A stretch of 64,000 nucleotides of DNA from Cellulomonas flavigena DSM 20109 (GTDB taxonomy: Bacteria; Actinomycetota; Actinomycetes; Actinomycetales; Cellulomonadaceae): positions 4,059,180 through 4,123,179 of the forward strand of contig NC_014151.1 in the NCBI RefSeq assembly GCF_000092865.1, read 5' to 3'. The notes beneath the pieces were generated by a model, which saw nothing but the letters and a program-made list of their open reading frames with translations, was not told the origin of the DNA and searched no databases. Positions 50,965 to 61,530 of the stretch are shown piece by piece (position 1 is the stretch's first letter; each line of letters opens with the position of its first letter). Made by a program: the position numbers and the translations under genes.

Positions 50965-52116
50965 TCAGCCCTTGAGCACCCCGGGGTCCTCCGGTGCGAG
51001 CGTCGCCAGGATCCGGTTGAGGTCCTGCACGGACGCGAACTCGACGGTGAGCCTGCCACGCGTCTTGCCGAGGTCGACCTTGACGCGGGTCTCGAACTTG
51101 TCCGACAACCGCGACGCCAGGTCGTCCAGTGCCTCGTTGCGGATCCCCGCGCGTGTTCGTGGCTTACGGGCGGGTGACTTCTCGTCGCCGCCGAGCGAGA
51201 CGATCTCCTCCACGGCGCGCACCGACAGACCTTCGGAGACGATGCGCTGGGCGAGACGCTCGATGGCCGCACCGTCGCCCAGACCGAGGAGGGCACGGGC
51301 GTGCCCTGCCGACAGGACGCCCGCGGCGACGCGGCGCTGCACGAGGGGCGGCAGGCGCAGCAGTCGGAGGGTGTTCGAGATCTGCGGCCGGGAGCGGTGG
51401 ATGCGGGTCGCGAGCTCGTCGTGCGTGCAGCCGAAGTCGTCCAGGAGCTGCTGGTACGCGGCTGCCTCCTCGAGGGGGTTCAGCTGCGAGCGGTGGAGGT
51501 TCTCCAGCAGCGCATCGCGCAGGAGGTCCGACTCCTCCGTCTCACGGATGATCGCGGGGATCGTCGAGAGACCTGCCTCCTGCGTGGCCCGCCAGCGCCG
51601 CTCCCCCATGATGAGCTCGTAGCCGTCCGCGGCCTCGCGGACCACCACCGGCTGCAGGACGCCGATCTCCCGGATCGACCCGACGAGCTCTGCCAGGGCG
51701 TCCTCGTCGAAAACGGTCCGGGGCTGTCGGGGGTTCGGCCGGATCGACCCGACCGGCAGCTCGGCGAAGCGAGCGCCGGGGACAGGCACGAGCCCGTCGA
51801 TCTCCTTGGCCGCACCCGGTGCGGCCTCGTCCGTGATCGCCGTGCTCTCGCCAGGGGTCGCTGCGGTGACCCGCTCGTCGGCCACTGCGGTGACGGTCGC
51901 GGGCGCTTCCACCGCGGCGCTCGTTGACGCCGTCGGGGACGGCTCGGCGGCGGGTGCCGCCGCCGCAGCCTGTGCCGCTGCCTCGTCGGCGGCCGCCTTC
52001 ACGGCGTCGGGGAAGAACACGTCGACCGGGCGGTCACCGGTGCTGCGGGGGGTGTCGAGCCCGGTCGGGATGAGTGCTCCCAGACCGCGGCCGAGACCAC
52101 GACGCTTCTCGCTCAC
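50965..52116 (-). CDS. parB: Chromosome-partitioning protein ParB
   Basis: 383 residues from the GTG at 52116. The N-terminus ([14 protein letters not shown]) is the usual ParA-contact start. After an Ala-rich linker come the CTP-binding box ([15 protein letters not shown]) and the helix-turn-helix that reads parS ([20 protein letters not shown], then [18 protein letters not shown]). The C-terminal dimer domain is present. It binds parS and slides as a clamp to form the segregation complex. The parA stop and parB start overlap (GTGA). Confidence 0.96.
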
Positions 52117-54512
52117 TGGTCCTCCTGAACAGGGCCGCTCGGTGTGCCGGCGGGGGTGGGGGTGGTGGGGGGAAGGGCACGCTCCGCGAGCTCGCGAGCA
52201 GCCTCGAGGTAGGCGAGGGCCCCGGAGGAGCCGCCGTCGTAGGTCATGACGGTCTGCCCGTAGCTGGGCGCCTCGGAGATCCGGACGGACCGCGGCACGG
52301 TGGTGCGCAGGGTGCGCTCGGGGAAGTGCGTCCGGACCTCCTCGGCCACCTGCTGCGCCAGGTTGGTCCGCGCGTCGTACATCGTGAGCAGGATCGTCGA
52401 TACGGTCAGCTCGGGGTTGAGGTGCGCCTGGATGAGCTCGATCGTCTTGAGGAGCTGGGACAGCCCTTCGAGCGCGTAGTACTCGCACTGGATCGGGATG
52501 AGGACCTCGCGGGCGACGACGAACGCGTTGACGGTGAGGAGCCCGAGACTCGGCGGGCAGTCGACGAAGACGTAGTCGATCCGGCTGAGTCCCTGCTCCG
52601 CCCGCCACTCGAGGTACGAGTCGAGTGCACTGCGAAGTCGAGTCTCGCGCGCCACCATCGAGACGAGCTCGATCTCGGCACCCGAGAGGTCGATCGTCGC
52701 CGGCAGGCACCACAGCCCCGGCACATCGGGGCTCTCCTGAACGGCCGCGTGCATGGGCGCACCGTCGACGAGCACCTCGTAGATCGACGGCGTGCCGGCC
52801 CTGTGCTCGATGCCGAGGGCGGTCGATGCGTTCCCCTGCGGGTCGTTGTCGAGGACGAGGACCTGGAGTCCTGCCTGCGCGAGTGCTGCCGCCAGGTTCA
52901 CCGTGGTCGTCGTCTTGCCGACGCCTCCCTTCTGGTTCGCGACCGTGATCACGCGGGTGCGCTCGGGACGCGGGAACTTGCGGCCCCGCAGCTCGATGCG
53001 GCGACGTGCGTCGATCTGGAGCTCGGCGAGCAGCGGCGTGTCCGGGGTGGGCTGCGGAAGGCTCTCCACGAGCGCAGCGCGGTGCGCGTCGTCCTGGCCG
53101 TCGCCGCGCGTAGGCTCGGCCACGCTCCCCCGCCCCGGGAGATCCGCCACACTGCCCGCCTCGTCGTCCACGACGGCAGGGAGCTCGTCAGCACCGAGCG
53201 TCGACCCCACGGCAATCGACGAGGACCCGGCGTCGGTCGCGGCCTGGACGGGCGGTGCGGACACTGCGGCGCCGCCGTTGGACTGCGCGGGCGAAGCTTC
53301 CTGGGATCCCTCGCGCGTCTCGGTGATCTGCTGCGGCTCGGAACGCCACGGCGATGCGCCCATCTCGACGACGGACACCGGTTGCGGTCGGCCGGCGCGA
53401 CGCGGCTTGGTTTCCGCACCGCCCGCTGGCGCGGGCGTCGCGCTGTCGCTCGCGGGCTGCTGGGTCTCCGCCTGCCCTGCGGATGCCCCGGTCGCTGTTC
53501 CACGTGAAACAGTGCCGCCATCGGCGTGCTCGTGATCCGTTCCACGTGAAACAGCGCCGCCGGCGCCCCCGGCAGCCGTTTCATCAGGAGCCTCGCTGGA
53601 CGCCGGGCCCGAGGCGGCCAGGTCGTGCGCTGTCCACCGAGGAGTGCCCGCCGACAGCACTTCCCCTCCACCGGAGGTTCCCACCTCGACCTGCCGGGCG
53701 CCGTCCGCGTCGGCGTTCCCCAGTGCGGGCGAACCGTTGCCCACGCTCGCCGGCACCCCGAACTGACTGCTGGACGCGCCCGCAGTTTCAGAGGCTGCCG
53801 CACCTGCGTCGTGAACGTCTCGGCGGGGACTACTCGCAGGCCCGAGATCGCTGCCTGGTCGCGTCGCGTCCCCGGCAGTTGAGTCGAGCGTCGGGGCGGC
53901 TGCGGAGGTCGATGCGTCTGCAGGGGCGGTCGTCGAGCTCATCGGGGGTGCGGCAGCCGATCCGGTCGACGTGGTGCTACCCGAGATGCCCGGAGGGACG
54001 GATGACGATGCGGCTGCCGGAGCGGTCGTCGAGCCAGTGGCTGGAGCAGGCGTCGAACCGGTCGCGGGTCCGAGCGACGATCCTGCAGCTGACGTCGGCG
54101 ACGGTGCGGTCGCAGGGGTCGACGACATTCCAGGTGCAGGTGCTGCCGTGGGCACGGGCGCGGCGACGTCTGCGGGCGGACGCTCTTCCGTCGGCGCGGC
54201 ATCCCGCGCCGGCGTCGCGGATGACGGCGTGGCTGTGACCTGGTCGGCGTGGGCCGCTGCCGAGCTCGGCCCACCGTGCATCGACTCCGTGGGCTGCATC
54301 GCCGTCGGCGCCTCCACGGCAGCTCCCGGCGCTGGCGCAGGCGCCGAGAACGCTGCTGCGGGATCGCCGAACCTGCCACCCCCGGACGGTGCCGATCCTC
54401 CTGAGGTCACGGGGTCTGGAACAGACGTGGCTGCCGCCTGAGCGGCCTCGGCGGCCGCCCGCTCAGCAGCCTCGCGCTCCTCGCGTCGCTTCTTCCTACC
54501 GAACACGCGCAC
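52113..54512 (-). CDS. parA: Chromosome-partitioning ATPase ParA with long low-complexity N-terminal extension
   Basis: 799 residues (or 797 if translation starts at the GTG at 54506, which has the better spacing to GGGAG). The C-terminal 280 residues form a standard ParA: Walker A ([21 protein letters not shown]) at about 527, [12 protein letters not shown], and [11 protein letters not shown]. The first 500 residues are Ala/Pro/Ser/Thr-rich and certainly disordered, except for the highly charged start [17 protein letters not shown]. Normal ParA proteins have about 300 residues. Two parS sites lie inside the extension (see 53496 and 53538), where they encode the peptide VSRGT. The start overlaps the rsmG stop, which supports translation of the extension. 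Confidence 0.88.
53496..53511. promoter_or_regulatory. parS-like site 1, inside parA
   Basis: TGTTCCACGTGAAACA differs at one position from the parS consensus TGTTTCACGTGAAACA. It lies inside the coding sequence of the ParA extension and encodes VSRGT on the minus strand. Confidence 0.85.
53538..53553. promoter_or_regulatory. parS-like site 2, inside parA
   Basis: CGTTCCACGTGAAACA, two differences from the consensus. Forty-two bases (14 codons) from site 1, so both encode the same pentapeptide in the same frame. Confidence 0.8.
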
Positions 54513-55182
54513 CTCTCCCTCGGACGGCCGACACGACTCGCGTCGGCTCGATCCCGGCGATCGTCGTCGCCTCGTGGACCCGACCGTCGATCAGACCGAC
54601 CGACCGCATGACCTTCGCTGCCGCGGCGAGCTCCTCGGCCGCCTTGGCGCCCTTCATCGCAACAATGCTTCCGCCCTCACGCACGAGCGGCGCCGTCCAG
54701 CGGTACAGCTTGTCGAGCGACGCGACCGCTCGCGCGGTCACTGCATCGGCCTCGACAGCACCGTCGAGCTCCTGCGCGCGGGCGCGCCTGACCTCGACAT
54801 TCGTGAGTCGGGTCCGCTCGACGACGTCCTCGAGCCACGCGACGCGCCGCTCCATCGGCTCGACGAGGATCACCTGCGCCGCCGGGCGCATCGCCGCCAC
54901 GACAACACCGGGCAACCCGGCTCCTGAGCCGACGTCCACGATGACCCCGTGATCAGGCAGAAACGGCACGACAGCAGCGGAGTTCAGCATGTGTCGCTCC
55001 CACAGGCGTGCCACCTCCCGCGGACCGATCAATCCACGGAGCTCCCCCTCCTCGACCAAGTAGGCGTGGAACGTCTCGACCGCCGACCACGCGTCACCGA
55101 AGAAGTCGGGAAGCCGGGAGTCGCCGTCCCACGGGTCGACGAGCGAGTCGTTGCCGTCCTCGACGCGCGACTCTTCTGACAC
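54496..55182 (-). CDS. rsmG: 16S rRNA (guanine-N7) methyltransferase RsmG
   Basis: 228 residues from the GTG at 55182, chosen because GGAG lies six bases before it. Motifs: ARLWERHMLNSAAV, then VIVDVGSGAGLPGVV (SAM-binding) and VEPMERRVAWLE. It methylates G527 of 16S rRNA and is the gidB orthologue. In related genomes it lies directly between jag and parA; here 5.7 kb without genes separate it from jag. A parS-like site stands just upstream. Confidence 0.95.
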   Translation of the reverse strand: MSEESRVEDGNDSLVDPWDGDSRLPDFFGDAWSAVETFHAYLVEEGELRGLIGPREVARLWERHMLNSAAVVPFLPDHGVIVDVGSGAGLPGVVVAAMRPAAQVILVEPMERRVAWLEDVVERTRLTNVEVRRARAQELDGAVEADAVTARAVASLDKLYRWTAPLVREGGSIVAMKGAKAAEELAAAAKVMRSVGLIDGRVHEATTIAGIEPTRVVSAVRGRGARVR

Positions 55183-55192
55183 TCGGGGCTCC

Positions 55193-55208
55193 TGTTCCAC
55201 GTGAGACA
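55193..55208. promoter_or_regulatory. parS-like site 3
   Basis: TGTTCCACGTGAGACA, two differences from the consensus, 11 bases before the proposed rsmG start (minus), so it lies in the 5' leader region. Confidence 0.7.
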
Positions 55209-55343
55209 CGGCGGGGATCGTCCGACGGACGCGCGCGGTCGATCCATCTCGCGCTGCGCGCCATACGCTACCGCCCCCTTCAGTCTGCCGACCGAGCCCA
55301 CCCCGCACTGCCGAGAACGTCTCTCCCCTGAGCACCGGCGGCG

Positions 55344-55555
55344 CAGGCACGAGCACCGCAGGCATGGCCCGAGCCGCCGGACGGGTGCAACTCCTACTCC
55401 CGGCACGGGTCCAGAGCCTCGACGTGCCGGGCATGTACAGCACCGCACGTGTACCCCCGAGGCGGCGGACGGATGCAGCTCCTACTCTCGACACGGGTCC
55501 AGAGCCTGGACGTACGGGGCAGGCACGAGCACCGCATGCATGTCCGGAGACAACC
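55344..55555. repeat. 88-bp tandem repeat, about 2.4 copies
   Basis: Copies start at 55344, 55432 and 55520. Shared segments include ACTCC-type phrases: CAACTCCTACTC versus CAGCTCCTACTC, and ACGGGTCCAGAGCCT in both full copies. Copies differ by about one base in five. 88 is not a multiple of three, so this is not a protein repeat. Confidence 0.8.
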
Positions 55556-55764
55556 GGCCTCGGGCTCTCTCAGGGCCCACACGGCAGAGCAACCCGCCCG
55601 CCGGCATCGCCGAACCTCGTCGGCACGCCACGTCGGCGTCGGTCCGGATTCCCGAACACGCTGTGCGGCCCCTCCCAGGCGGCCGCATCCGGATCGCCGC
55701 GCGTCGTCGCTCACAGCGCGTCGGCGGGTGCGATCACCGGGCACATCTCTGTTGCCCGCGCTCC

Positions 55765-55780
55765 GGTTCCACGTGAAACA
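55765..55780. promoter_or_regulatory. parS-like site 4
   Basis: GGTTCCACGTGAAACA, two differences from the consensus, in the gene-free region. Confidence 0.75.
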
Positions 55781-56028
55781 CACGGCACCCTTGAGCGCCT
55801 CAGGCGCCGGACCCGAGTCTCCAAGCGCCGCGCCAGCAGGGTGGTGCTCAGTGCTGCCCGTCAGACCCCGCGCGCCGGGTCAAGTACGACGGGACGCTCG
55901 GGGCGTCCACCGCCGTCGGCTGACCGCCTCGACCAGGGTCATCCCCGCCGGAGCGCTGCCCTACCCCCGGCTTGCCGCGAGGCCGCCGGGGTTCGGAGTG
56001 ATCCCGAAGAGTGACCTGCACGCTTCCG

Positions 56029-56044
56029 AGTTTCACGTGAAACA
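56029..56044. promoter_or_regulatory. parS-like site 5
   Basis: AGTTTCACGTGAAACA, one difference from the consensus, in the gene-free region; with 53496 the best match in the window. Confidence 0.85.
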
Positions 56045-56361
56045 GAGGGAGGCATGAACATTTCCGCACCCACCAACATCGCCGTGCCGCGCCCCCGTCC
56101 GTCGCGAGCCCACCGCTCCGGCAGGAGCGGCGCCAGCTTCTACCGCACGCGGTGACAGCGCGGCGCAGGACATGACCGCCGTCGGTCGCACCGTCTCCTG
56201 GTGCCCCACGTCTGCTGCGTCTCGTCGCTCATGGCGGCCAGCGCGCACCGCCCGCAGCGTCACCGACACGGCCGTACAACCCGATGGCTCTGTTCCACAC
56301 CCCGCCGGGCCGGTTCCGCACGCCCCCGATCGCCAGCACCACACCACGGTGCGCCACGCCG

Positions 56362-56561
56362 CACACCCCGGCCCCCCACGCCCGCACACACCCCGGGCCG
56401 CGACACCCCCACACACCCCGGTCCCCTACGCCCGCACACACCCCGGTCCCCTACACCCCCACACACCCCGGTCCCCTACGCCCCCACACACCCCGGTCCG
56501 CGACACCCCCACACACCCCGGTGCCCTACGCCCCCACACACCCCGGTGATCTACGCCCGTG
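56362..56561. repeat. 25-bp tandem repeat array, eight clear copies
   Basis: CCCCGG occurs at 56366, 56391, 56416, 56441, 56466, 56491, 56516 and 56541, exactly every 25 bases. The unit is CCCCGGTCCCCTACGCCC plus a CACACA-type joint; some copies have CGACACCCC instead of CTACGCC. Degenerate copies continue on both sides (about 56310 to 56600). One strand is almost free of G outside the GG pair, so the array is strongly C-rich on the plus strand. No unique spacers, so not a CRISPR. Confidence 0.9.
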
Positions 56562-57580
56562 CGACCCCGATCGCCCGGTACGTCACACCCCATGGTTCAG
56601 TCCCGGCATCAGCGGGTGCCGACGTCACAGGAGGCATGACCAGCAGGCCGGATCGTCACGTTCAACGCATCGGTGCTCTGTGACGACAGTTGGAAGGTTG
56701 ATTCCGTCCCATGGCCGCCGAGACTCCGTCCACGGCGGGACGCCGACGGCAGGGAAGCTCCAGCAGCCGGAATCGCGACCAGGCGCATGGATGCCATGGA
56801 TGCCCACGCGACGACCGTGCCCCAGCCCCTGTGATCGAGCGGACCGGCGACCGAGGGCAGGCCTCCCCGGAGTCTCGGGCGGCGGGCCCTGGCGACTGAG
56901 CGGGGAGGTTTCTCCCCGCGTCCCTCATCGAGTTCCCGGGGTACGGTCCTCCCCATCACAACACGGGCCCGGCGGGAGAACCAGCGATACATGCGGGCGC
57001 GAGGGCATGCCAGGGCCCCTCCATGTGTGGCTGAGTGCTCAGACGTGCGAGTACCTCCGAACACACCGCCCGGCCTTCCCCGCGACAAAGGACGGCCGCC
57101 GAGTCGGACCGTCCTGGGCTGTGGGACGCGGACGTGAGTGTGCCGGGGCCGCGCCTCAGTACCTTGGTGCAGTGCGACGCAGTGGTGCTGCCGAAGGGAA
57201 CGGCGGCAGCGGTGCGGTCCACGCGCGGATACGTACGCGTCCGTAGGCGTCGGCATGTCCTTCGTGCGGAGCGGGGGACACCGCGGCGGGGCTCGTGGTC
57301 GGGCCGAGTTCACGGCAGGTGACCCACGAGACCGCGACTGACGCACCGCGCGCCGCGACCTGAGCGGAAACGCGGATCGAGTGCACGGGAACTGTGGTGG
57401 ACGTAGGACTACCAGGACGTCCCGCTCGTTGGCCAGACGCCGGTCGAGACGTCGCGCCTCCCAGGTGCGTGCAGATCAGACACGCAGACAGCCCCGCGCC
57501 ACTGCCCATCGTGCCGGACTGGGCGACCGGGCAGAACGTGCCCGGCGGGAGATGCTCGAGCGGCTCGAGCATCATGCGTC

Positions 57581-57661
57581 CTCGAGCCGGCCCACGCAGC
57601 GGACCTGCATGAGCCGGCTTGCGCAGCGGACCTGCATGAGCCGGCTTGCGCAGCGCACCTA
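57581..57661. repeat. 27-bp tandem repeat, three copies
   Basis: GAGCCGG occurs at 57584, 57611 and 57638; the unit is GAGCCGGCTTGCGCAGCGGA plus CCTGCAT. The second and third copies are nearly identical. Confidence 0.8.
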
Positions 57662-57867
57662 CGTCCATCCAGTACGCCAAGGGACAGGCCCGATCCGCCA
57701 CGCCCCGGGGCACATCCCGAGCCGCCCCGCGGCCACACTCCCTGCCGCGCCGCAGCACATACCCGAGCCTGTGCGCCTCGGCGGTTCGAGCTGTCAGCGA
57801 CGGGATGGCTTCTGTCGTCGGGGGGTCCGCCCTGGGGGCGTCGTCGATAACGGCCGACCTCGCAAGG

Positions 57868-57950
57868 ACCACGGCGCGACCACACCATGCCGCGACGACA
57901 CCACGGCACGACCACACCATGCCGCGACGACACCACCGCACGACCACCCC
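57868..57950. repeat. 32-bp tandem repeat, two and a half copies
   Basis: Copies start at 57868, 57900 and 57932. The first two share ACCACGGC, then CGACCACACCATGCCGCGAC, with a single difference. The third is truncated. Confidence 0.8.
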
Positions 57951-58625
57951 ACCGCGGGACGGGGCGATGGCGCGAGGTCTGCCCCACACGCCCCGGCGCT
58001 GCGGTCCATCGCGCACTCGCACTCCCGCGCAGCGCCGGAGGTGAATTGCGCGACGCAGTACCGCATTGCACTCGGCCGCGCGCCAGACGAGACGGCGCAC
58101 GGGTGCCACGTGACGATCCCGCGAATCACGAGATCATCTCCAGCCCGGACCGCGCGACGGTCGCGACGAAGGCGAGCATCCCTCCCGTTCTCGCCACGCG
58201 GCTGACCACACCACTCGGATTGGACGCGCGCCGACGAGTGTCGCGCCGACGCCTCGCCGGCGGAATGCTTCTCGAGCCCGGCGCTGCCGGTCTTGACGAC
58301 CATCCCCGCCGCCGTCCTTCGGCAGCGTCGACAGGGCCCGTCGTCCTGAGCACCGTCGCACCGCGGGCGGGACGCCTCGTCAGTGCGATCGCTCCTTGCG
58401 ACACCGGCGCCCGGGCGCCTGCTTCTGCTGGAGGCCAAGCCCGCAACAGGCCCGCGCTCCCCCGCAGCCACACTCCGCGCCATGCGGCTGAATGTCTCGT
58501 GCGCCCGTCCACGCCGCCCCACGGCTTCAGCGACACACATCGACACGTGCACGCGCGTCGACGCGCGAGAAGCCTCTCGATCCCCGAAGCCGCATGAGGG
58601 TGGGTGCCGGCGATCAGGCGGACTC

Positions 58626-58641
58626 CGTTTCACGTGGAACA
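58626..58641. promoter_or_regulatory. parS-like site 6
   Basis: CGTTTCACGTGGAACA, two differences from the consensus. Identical to the site at 59859. Confidence 0.75.
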
Positions 58642-59858
58642 TCGATGGCGCCTCGCTCCTACGTGGCCGTGCCCGACGGTGAAGAGATCCGAGCGTGCTC
58701 ATCTCCTCGCAGTACGTCGCGCTGAGCAATTCACGTGGAGACGGCCGTCTGGCCCGCTCGCGAGGCGAGCACCCAACGCGATGCCGTCGGCGACGAGCCA
58801 CGGCCAACGCTCTGCCGACCCGCGGGCATGATCGCGCGGACAGACTCGCGCCGAGGGGTCAAGTGCCGCGGGCGGCCTACGCCGCAGCGCGTGGTCCTCG
58901 AGACGCAGCAAGCCTTTGCGGCTCTCATCCCCTTCCCACACCGCGGTCGGGCGTGCATACCTGCCCTCATCCAAAGCTGACGCCCGTCGGAGACCCACCT
59001 GGGCGATGCTCTGAAGCGTCCCGCCCATCGAGTCGCAAAAAGCGCGACCTGTACGACCGTCATCTGCAGGAACCACGCCGCGAGGTCCAGCGAGCGGCAG
59101 TGAGGCAACGCAGACACCGCGCCGGGAGCCGCGCATCAGGAACACGAGGAAGGTCGAGTTGGTGGTGCGACGCTCCGTCTACCGTAGGGCAGAGCCCAGC
59201 CGAGCTGGCCGCACGTCCGTCGTCATGACCGCTCTGCATGAGCGCGCGCAGCGCGCACCCCACAACACGCAGGACCCCACGCCGTCCAGGCGTGACCTGC
59301 GTGCGGTCGTCGACACGGCCCTGAACCACGGCACCGAACCGACAGCTTCTCGCACGCCGCGCGGGCCGTACGAGACCGCCACGCTGCTCGCCACGTCGTA
59401 CCCGACCCCCACGCCTCAGCGCTCACGACCGAGCGTTCGAAACGCCACGCGCGACCCGCGCGCCGGGCATACGCCCGTGAGGCGGCGCGCGGCACCGCGC
59501 TGAAGAGCGACGCCCTGGCCGCACTGCGCCGCGCGCGGCCCGCAGCACGCGAGTGCCCGAGGGTGCTGCAGAGCGCCGAGCGGGATGTACGCGGCCCCAG
59601 AACCCCACGACCGGCGTAGCGCATCAGTCCATCCCAAGGTGATGCAGGGCGCCGCAGCCGACGGCGTCGTGCTGTACTCGTGGGGGCGCGCACGAGCCGC
59701 GAGTTGACCCCGTGTATCGAGCGCCCTCCGTCCACGCCGCGTGCGACATCCGACCGGCCGGCACGGGCGCTGGCGGACCACCGCGCCCACGGGGGCAAGT
59801 GGCTCTCGAGGACGGTGGGTCCCGCAGAATCGGGCGAACGCCCCGGCCTCCCCGCTCG

Positions 59859-59874
59859 CGTTTCACGTGGAACA
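59859..59874. promoter_or_regulatory. parS-like site 7
   Basis: CGTTTCACGTGGAACA, two differences from the consensus; identical to site 6, and both are followed by TCG. Confidence 0.75.
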
Positions 59875-60634
59875 TCGTCGGACGCCGGGAACTGTCGTTG
59901 GCCTACGCCACAGGCCCGCCCCGTGGAGCAGCCGACCAGGTCACCAACCCGTGCGCCTGGGCCTGTCAGCTGGCTTGATGTCCGACCTCCACTGGGCGCC
60001 TGGCAGGGTCGAGACGTTCCACGCTCGATGGCGACAACGGCGACGGGTCGACGCGACTCGGGGCGCGCGCGTCGCCGAGGTCGACTACGACCGTCCCGCT
60101 CGTCGCCGCGGACCCCAACTCCCCCGGCTCGCACGAGTCATCCGCACCTCGTCACCGAGCATGTCTCCCCGAGTACGTGCCTTGGTGTTCGCTGGCGCAC
60201 ACCCCACTCGCCCAGGCCGCCGACTGGGCCGCCGCCACGCGGCGCGCCCAGGGTGCCGGGCTTCGGACCAGGAAGGCCACGACGGCGGACCCCCGACAGC
60301 CGCCACCCCGTTCGACGGTCGACCCGCGGAGCGACGAGAACACCACGACGATCCTCTTGAGCACCGCGTCGGCGTCTGCGCACCGAGCCACACGTCCAAC
60401 GGGTCAGGCATCTCCTCACGCCGTGGTTGTCGCACTTCTCGGCATCTCCGCGCGGTCTCGTCGTCCCAGACTCACCCGACCCGGACCTGACGCAACGCGC
60501 ACCGGGAGGACGGCGCGAGGCGGCAAGCACCCACACCTCCCACCCTGGAAAGGTCCGCCCGATGCCACCCGTCCCCGCTGACGGGCAGTCCGGGGCAGGC
60601 GCCGTGGACGACGAAACATCGCCCTTGCGGCTCT

Positions 60635-60650
60635 CGTTCCACGTGAAACA
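60635..60650. promoter_or_regulatory. parS-like site 8
   Basis: CGTTCCACGTGAAACA, two differences from the consensus; same sequence as the site at 53538. It is the right-most of the cluster, 300 bases before the end of jag. Confidence 0.75.
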
Positions 60651-60955
60651 CAACGCTGCTGGCCATCCAGGTCGTCACCTCAGGCCGGGGGCGCCCGATC
60701 GTACGGCCCTAGTACGAGACGCACGGGCCCAGCACACCGCACCGCACCGCACCGCCGGAATGTGCCTTCACCCGCGCCAGGGAAGCCGCCTCGGAGACGA
60801 CGTGCGAGGGCGTCTCGACCGAGCTCCAGGTCAGCCACACACCGTGAGGGGACGACCATCCCGAGCCCGCCAGAAGACAGCGACGGGCGAGTGGCTGCTG
60901 CCACCCGCCCGTCCGCGTCGGATCTTCGTGAACCCGCAGGCTCACCCCTCGTGAG

Positions 60956-61468
60956 TCACGCCGGGTGGATGACCACACGCCGCTCGGGCTCGACACCCTC
61001 GGAGTCGCTCACGAGGCCGGCGTCTGCGACTGCATCGTGCACGACCTTGCGCTCGAACGGGTTCATCGGCTTCAGCGTGACCGCAGCACCCTCGGCCTTG
61101 ACCCGCTCGATGGCCTCGCGGGCGATCCCGATGAGCTCCTTGCGGCGCGCCGCTCGGAAGCCGGCGACATCGAGCATGAGGCGGCTGCGCTCGCCGGTCT
61201 TCGTCTGCACCGCGAGCCGGGTCAGCTCCTGCAGTGCGTCCAGGACCTGCCCGTCGGGGCCGACCAGGCGACGCAGGGACGTGTCGTCCTCGTCCTCGGC
61301 GAGGATCTCCACCGCCGCACGGCCGTGGTCGACGTCGATGTCGATGTCGCCGTCGAGGTCGGCGATGTCGAGGAACTCCTCGAGGTAGTCGGCCGCGATC
61401 TCGCCCTCCTCCTCGAGTCGCGTCACGAGGTCACCGTCTGCAGCGGTGCCCGGCTCGGAAGTAGCCAT
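60956..61468 (-). CDS. jag: Jag/KhpB RNA-binding protein
   Basis: 170 residues from the ATG at 61468, with GGAGAAG upstream. Acidic N-terminus, then a KH domain (RRLVGPDGQVLDALQELTRL) and an R3H domain (MNPFERKVVHDAVADAG). It binds RNA and is tied to cell division and elongation in Gram-positive bacteria. Its gene follows yidC, as usual. Confidence 0.94.
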   Translation of the reverse strand: MATSEPGTAADGDLVTRLEEEGEIAADYLEEFLDIADLDGDIDIDVDHGRAAVEILAEDEDDTSLRRLVGPDGQVLDALQELTRLAVQTKTGERSRLMLDVAGFRAARRKELIGIAREAIERVKAEGAAVTLKPMNPFERKVVHDAVADAGLVSDSEGVEPERRVVIHPA

Positions 61469-61530
61469 CTCTTCTCCGTTCAGCGAGATCGCGTCCGCAC
61501 AACGTGTCACGGCGTGCGCGAAGCGGGTGG

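Follow-up and report, generated by a model that had tools for sequence, protein, structure and literature searches.

The final 64 kb of the single-contig chromosome (4,123,179 bp) of the soil bacterium Cellulomonas flavigena DSM 20109, hereafter the window, contains a 5,773-bp spacer between rsmG and jag (55183..60955) that is studded with sites resembling parS, the binding sequence of ParB, and in which neither codon periodicity, nor coding score, nor a Pfam search of 20 open reading frames (ORFs) detects a gene. We propose, from sequence, that the spacer locus is an expanded, transcription-insulated centromere for ParB loading, a reading to which we give a probability of roughly 70%. On the minus strand the genes run yidC-jag-[spacer]-rsmG-parA-parB, and dnaA starts at base 68 of the chromosome record, immediately beyond the end of the window. 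Proximity to the origin is judged from this position of dnaA, and agrees with an earlier reading of the same DNA (the sequence-only reading), which had placed the interval beside the origin and taken it for an expanded bacterial centromere. That is also the reading best supported here, by the array of parS sites, the absence of coding signal, the place next to parAB and dnaA, and the recurrence of the arrangement across the genus.

parS sites and coding signal in C. flavigena

Scanning the whole window with the 16-bp consensus (up to three mismatches) yielded eight parS-like sites, all between 53496 and 60650 (7.2 kb), where 100 dinucleotide shuffles of the window gave an expectation of 0.04 sites and never more than one. 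The counts of the sequence-only reading, five sites in the interval 55209-60955 and eight within 7.2 kb, are therefore borne out. The five lie at 55765..55780, 56029..56044 (14-bp core perfect), 58626..58641, 59859..59874 and 60635..60650, the last being closest to jag. Two more fall in the parA frame, within the N-terminal extension of ParA (53496..53511, one mismatch, read as VSRGT in that frame, and 53538..53553, two mismatches), and one precedes the rsmG start codon by 10 bp (55193..55208). The latter, whose 14-bp core departs from the consensus at two positions, is more degenerate than any of the other seven and does not match the GTTYCACGTGRAAC pattern, which occurs at eight places genome-wide, seven of them at the locus and the eighth at chromosome position 177,463. 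Consensus sites are clustered near oriC in this genome. Four further sites whose 14-bp core is mismatched at two positions lie outside the locus; one is that at 177,463, an isolated parS-like palindrome (GTTCCACGTGGAAC) distant from the cluster.

The coding signal of the spacer is as distinctive as its sites. In 450-bp windows, guanine-plus-cytosine (GC) content by codon phase was flat (range <0.15) from about 55,050 to 60,750, at 5.7 kb the longest such run in the 64 kb; the second longest measured only 0.9 kb. Codon-phase differences reached 23-49 points in most windows over flanking genes against 3-10 across the spacer, and two windows over the ParA extension were likewise flat. With 16 ORFs of the window's first 50 kb as its training set, a codon model scored all 54 spacer ORFs of at least 60 amino acids below zero, both with a background derived from the spacer (biased against its ORFs) and with one derived from the training genes. 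The best coding segment in the spacer scored 12.5, compared with a mean of 11.5 in Markov shuffles, 21/100 of which reached 12.5. Pfam returned nothing at E 0.1 for the 20 ORFs submitted out of 54, and one spacer ORF compared with a 5.8-billion-protein database matched only itself (the 7,994 candidates with the most shared words were scored). The flat codon phase, the negative scores and the Pfam result together uphold the earlier statement that the interval holds no credible gene.

Other kinds of content were also sought. The spacer had no blastn match in plasmid, phage or Escherichia coli DNA, and apart from parS no direct repeat of at least 18 nt pairs its two borders; nor did the 20 ORFs given to Pfam show an element gene, another mark of a mobile element or genomic island. 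Rfam gave no match at the gathering score and a single weak, chance-level one within the spacer. The tract-wide conservation that would mark a non-coding RNA gene was likewise not found on comparison with relatives. A sigma-70 promoter scan found none where 0.3 were expected by chance, and is hence uninformative.

Recurrence across Cellulomonas

We searched 81 Cellulomonas genomes for Jag (found in 76) and RsmG (found in 79) and kept the 63 with both genes on one contig, dropping 17 in which a gene was absent or the two genes stood on separate contigs and one, G071, with neither gene. Spacer length was taken from the end of the RsmG alignment to the Jag stop, and parS was counted at up to two mismatches in the 14-bp core. 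Lengths ranged from 35 to 5,776 bp (median 2,830), with C. flavigena the longest and 42 spacers of at least 2 kb. The sequence-only reading had named the spacers of relatives as a check on its proposal, and they support it: 55/63 are at least 1 kb long and 61/63 contain at least one parS. In all, 334 sites occurred in 181,691 bp of spacer, as opposed to one site in ten Markov sets together (55 spacers of at least 600 bp) and none in 182,558 bp of jag-side flank. Genome-wide, 431 of the 515 consensus sites in the 63 genomes (84%) fell within the fetched locus; parS-like sites beyond the locus are present in most relatives too. ParABS genes accompany the sites, parA in 62 and parB in 61 of the 63 fetched stretches, C. 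flavigena included, and in the 62 loci with parA the counted sites lay in the rsmG-jag or rsmG-parA intervals, with none in rsmG or the parA core. A parS tract therefore recurs in relatives independently of the local sequence.

Spacer length is variable across the genus and clustered on the tree. At a 2-kb cut, the protein tree (a quick method, with some long branches) requires at least eight changes between long and short, and the eight other members of the C. flavigena clade have spacers of 4.1-4.9 kb. Given this distribution and the missing border repeats (parS excepted) and plasmid or phage matches, the earlier description of the DNA as inserted finds no support. The accompanying premise, that rsmG and jag are close neighbours in related actinobacteria, held for 16/18 named loci with both genes (gaps of 68-263 bp; 20 loci examined), the remaining two being Cellulomonadaceae with gaps of ~0.9-1.06 kb; it fails for Cellulomonas, in which long spacers prevail. 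From 133 genomes of other genera in the family we dropped three; the gap exceeded 1 kb in 24 and 2 kb in seven of the 130 kept. We fetched 22 other-genus loci, one genome per genus with the largest gap that fitted its contig (a choice that biases these lengths upward; genera g2 and g22 were unsampled), and analysed 21, G196 having no parA in its stretch. Phytomonospora endophytica (L022, 10631-19645) has 21 parS-like sites next to rsmG, in a stretch of 9 kb.

One Cellulomonas genome departs in the site itself: in G073 (L128) all five parS-like sites of the locus share the sequence GTTTCCCGTGAAAC and a single orientation, and GTTYCACGTGRAAC is absent from the genome. A change in ParB specificity was considered and rejected, as its ParB has no private residue at columns more than 90% conserved in the aligned stretch; the variant is possibly a sequencing artefact.

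Tract length, site number and relocation

Longer intervals hold more sites. Interval length and parS number were correlated over 125 rsmG-jag and rsmG-parA intervals of Cellulomonas (Spearman 0.87, the intervals not being independent) and over 42 intervals from the 21 other-genus loci (0.85). The 13 intervals without parS were all 35-373 bp long; the 42 other-genus intervals measured 60-373 bp when site-free and 981-3,101 bp when they held at least four sites. When only the spacer was considered, independent contrasts along the tree gave r = 0.50. Neighbouring sites also avoid one another, as distances below 100 bp made up 8.4% of 273 against 19.6% at random. Even spacing was rejected, since the largest gap was no smaller than random (mean quantile 0.57, 53 genomes).

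In the two genomes with collapsed spacers, the parS sites are relocated to another weakly periodic stretch that starts less than 1.4 kb from rsmG. In G013, rsmG and jag are 64 bp apart, and the 3,068 bp that separate rsmG from parA hold five parS, with a codon-phase range of mostly 0.01-0.15; its parB was found in a longer stretch. In G026 (L160) the rsmG-jag gap is 35 bp, and four parS occupy a stretch that lies ~1-3.6 kb beyond rsmG and has a codon-phase range of 0.05-0.16. Its parB is on a separate contig (C11), and a search of the 15 kb fetched did not reveal parA.

Turnover and repeats between the sites

With parS masked, the C. flavigena spacer had no blastn match at E 1e-3 in the 62 other spacers (low-complexity filter on), while its rsmG and jag match those of the eight clade members at 77-87%. 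Neutral DNA would show such dissimilarity at these distances as well. In the best-aligned pair, G046/G069, the spacers differ at 17.7% of positions compared with 11.8% at four-fold sites, 23/25 gaps are not multiples of three, and three of four parS are identical, one having been lost or gained. The baseline consists of four-fold sites of rsmG, jag, parA and parB alone. Forced alignments gave spacer and four-fold differences of 0.42/0.24 for G067/G069 and 0.44/0.23 for G022/G065, and parS of G067 stand at the same alignment columns as in G069 despite ~42% spacer difference between them (again a forced alignment). Five pairs were tried, and a rate faster than four-fold sites is stated on the one well-aligned pair, G046/G069.

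The earlier reading had listed four tandem-repeat families, and there are at least that many: five arrays score 50 or more inside the interval, at 55343..55536 (88-bp unit, 2.2 copies), 56362..56558 (25/50-bp unit, 7.9 copies of 25), 57584..57660 (27-bp unit, 2.9 copies), 57701..57769 (23-bp unit, 3 copies) and 57868..57960 (16/32-bp unit). Over 55 spacers, 6.9% of the sequence is tandem repeat (11% in C. flavigena), compared with 1.1% in the right-hand flank and 0.2% in Markov shuffles; the repeats are probably a by-product of growth by duplication. The suggestion that they shape ParB spreading gained no support of its own, and the C. flavigena spacer matches no relative's. Spacer pieces that match elsewhere in the same genome are all 63 bases or shorter. 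A patch of such scraps lies at 60007-60110, where a perfect 18-nt inverted copy of rsmG (60007-60024, corresponding to 55064-55081) sits beside a 58-bp piece (60053-60110) that aligns at 87% with a 63-base segment at position 3,583,010 of the chromosome, within long open frames.

Borders of the spacer and the ParA extension

Close behind jag the spacer carries a GC-rich hairpin of 20 pairs (60876..60919, minus strand), likely the terminator of the operon ending with jag, as judged from folding and covariation. Among genomes with spacers of at least 300 bp, the stem reaches 11 bp or more in 60/61 (median 17 pairs); 98.6% of cells in the covariation analysis are paired, compared with 56% after shuffling the arms (relatedness ignored), and in 55/55 genomes the hairpin is stronger than all 12 mid-spacer control windows. 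Folding after jag is weak in both collapsed spacers. In loci L018 and L019 and in genomes G008, G046, G069, G067, G064, G061 and G007 a parS forms part of the hairpin, and there terminator and ParB site may be one palindrome. At the rsmG border, 32/55 genomes with spacers above 600 bp have a parS no more than 60 bp from the start codon of rsmG; in Mycobacterium, a parS is reported to overlap a gidB (rsmG) promoter (PMC2346475).

The bordering genes themselves, all on the minus strand, are rsmG on the left (54496..55182; TIGR00138 above its cut-off) and jag on the right (60956..61510; NF041568 Jag/EloR, E 1.4e-28, below its cut-off), with homologues in 79 and 76 of the 81 Cellulomonas genomes, respectively. 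Beyond rsmG follow parA (52113..54512; NF041546 ParA, E 1.8e-29, below its cut-off) and parB (50965..52110; TIGR00180 ParB domain above its cut-off).

ParA comprises an ATPase core (~52113-53063) and a low-complexity N-terminal extension (~53064-54512) without codon bias, which has counterparts in Cellulomonas loci among L097-L156. The extension is open over at least 90% of the rsmG-parA gap in 47/48 genomes (gap >500 bp, G013 left out), and VFGRKKRR occurs near its start in many of the 25 sequences examined. All 108 parS in ParA extensions share one frame, reading V(S/P)R(E/G)T or VSREA. This bias exceeds what stop avoidance would produce, because only one of the two other frames meets a stop.

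Interpretation and alternatives

ParB-CTP clamps have been described as loading at parS and sliding from there (PMC7053999, PMC8367383). On the centromere reading, ParB would load at the eight parS of C. flavigena as a clamp and slide into the DNA between and beside them, and the resulting partition complex would be moved by ParA and have SMC loaded on it. The jag operon upstream would stop at the strong hairpin at one border, and parS would sit in the rsmG-parA-parB leader at the other. Hairpin and leader parS would then leave a platform screened from read-through, probably little transcribed, that may feed back on its own parAB expression. Sequence constraint would act on the sites and borders only, the DNA between being free to change so long as it stays gene-poor and keeps the sites apart. 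A screened, gene-poor platform of this kind is plausible from known ParB biology, and on this reading the long gene-free tract would be useful, not merely tolerated. A wider form of the proposal is more doubtful, and we advance it tentatively: that Cellulomonas and some relatives possess a regional bacterial centromere, a kilobase tract selected for length and near-absence of genes but free in sequence, which appears elsewhere in the locus when missing from one place and extends into parA as dual-coded parS and peptide, V(S/P)R(E/G)T/A, in one fixed frame.

Several observations weigh against the centromere reading. Nine of the 63 spacers (G078, G035, G079, G020, G015, G080, G036, G004 and G045) contain 11 coding-like ORFs in all, and codon periodicity appears in 17/512 spacer windows (from 11 spacers) against 0/512 in shuffles; genes are therefore not strictly excluded. 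The ParA extension, taken as coding, scores -114 with the spacer background and -88 with the training-gene background, so that a low-complexity protein in the spacer could escape the codon test as well. Tract length is not essential, since six genomes have spacers of 348-560 bp and no comparably long gene-free tract was found in them. The relation between length and site number includes rsmG-parA intervals that are mostly open frame rather than non-coding, and the 62 contrasts divide into 33 that agree with it, 20 that oppose it and nine without a difference in site number. The concentration of sites is weaker outside Cellulomonas: of the 127 parS-like sites in the 21 other-genus loci, the two intervals account for 75 and parA for 17, the other 35 being elsewhere in the stretch. 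Spacer and four-fold rates are about equal in two pairs (forced alignments; G028/G048 0.36/0.35 and G061/G064 0.46/0.45). The hairpin tail has few T (2.7 of 10), and hairpins after jag also occur in several actinobacteria with short gaps; the hairpin is thus not specific to long spacers and probably predates their expansion. Finally, a single parS is reported to suffice in Corynebacterium glutamicum (PMC7083940).

The main rival is neutral growth, in which only parS, the rsmG leader and the jag hairpin would be functional and the filler would be harmless ballast from duplication and insertion. We rate it a serious contender, somewhat short of an even chance, and both it and the centromere reading can be true. 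Neutral growth accounts equally well for turnover and repeats: spacer DNA changes as fast as four-fold sites or faster, the C. flavigena spacer resembles none of its 62 relatives, tandem repeats are enriched about sixfold over the right-hand flank, nine of 63 spacers hold coding-like ORFs, and the 58-bp piece and the inverted rsmG copy are scraps shared with other places. It fits less well with the tracking of length by parS number in two sets of intervals, the avoidance of close spacing, the shortness of parS-free intervals, and the reappearance of the sites of both collapsed genomes in a stretch of low coding signal. A neutral model in which sites multiply could still yield much of this pattern.

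The two alternatives raised by the sequence-only reading, decayed genes and a non-coding RNA locus, proved weaker. That the spacer represents the remains of one or several genes that formerly stood between rsmG and jag is improbable: the coding-like ORFs in nine spacers do point to gene gain, and presumably loss, at this place, but the C. flavigena spacer has no codon periodicity, no Pfam match in 20 ORFs, no homologue of the one ORF searched and no similarity to the spacers of relatives, and decay would not place parS. A non-coding RNA locus is less probable still, as the conserved structured element it calls for is present solely as the short hairpin after jag, while Rfam gave no match at the gathering score and no conservation of spacer sequence was found between C. 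flavigena and its relatives. An assembly error or a recently inserted mobile segment would suit the longest spacer of 63 and its lack of similar DNA in the collections searched, but is very improbable given a genome reported as finished from Sanger 8-kb and fosmid libraries, 454 and Illumina (PMC3035266), comparable tracts in other genomes (4.1-4.9 kb in eight clade members), and the absence of plasmid or phage matches and of direct border repeats other than parS.

The spacers of Cellulomonas form a natural series of 35 to 5,776 bp, with two relocations and known site positions, which makes the role of the DNA between parS directly testable. The genus would also supply a bacterial example in which centromere sites persist while the DNA that bears them changes rapidly.

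Comparison with known systems

The clearest parallels are with other clustered parS. In C. glutamicum, ten parS, of which nine are intergenic, are reported to span 35 kb at 73 kb from oriC (PMC7083940); C. flavigena shares with it the clustering in the oriC region and the mostly intergenic placement, but has 7/8 of its consensus sites within ~7 kb, mostly in one gene-free tract, and ~3-11 kb from the dnaA-proximal end of the record. In Caulobacter crescentus, similarly, at least five parS ~8 kb from the origin are reported, with ParB over ~10 kb there; the cluster there is not known to lie in a multi-kilobase gene-free tract, and its permissive zone of ~500 kb concerns tolerance of extra parS copies (PMC5815017). 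Mycobacteria have the same gene order (jag-gidB-parA-parB), and in M. bovis BCG one parS is described over the gidB promoter and another in parA; unlike in C. flavigena, the genes are closely spaced and there are two sites only (PMC2346475). Among the open-licence literature matches listed, the titles and opening lines of abstracts contained no description of a gene-free parS tract.

In eukaryotic regional centromeres the binding function is conserved although most of the underlying sequence changes fast. If the centromere reading is true, the rsmG-jag spacer would be a bacterial counterpart of such a fast-evolving centromere. The likeness would be one of analogy only: the proteins are unrelated, the C. 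flavigena locus is set by short parS sites, and its tract spans just kilobases.

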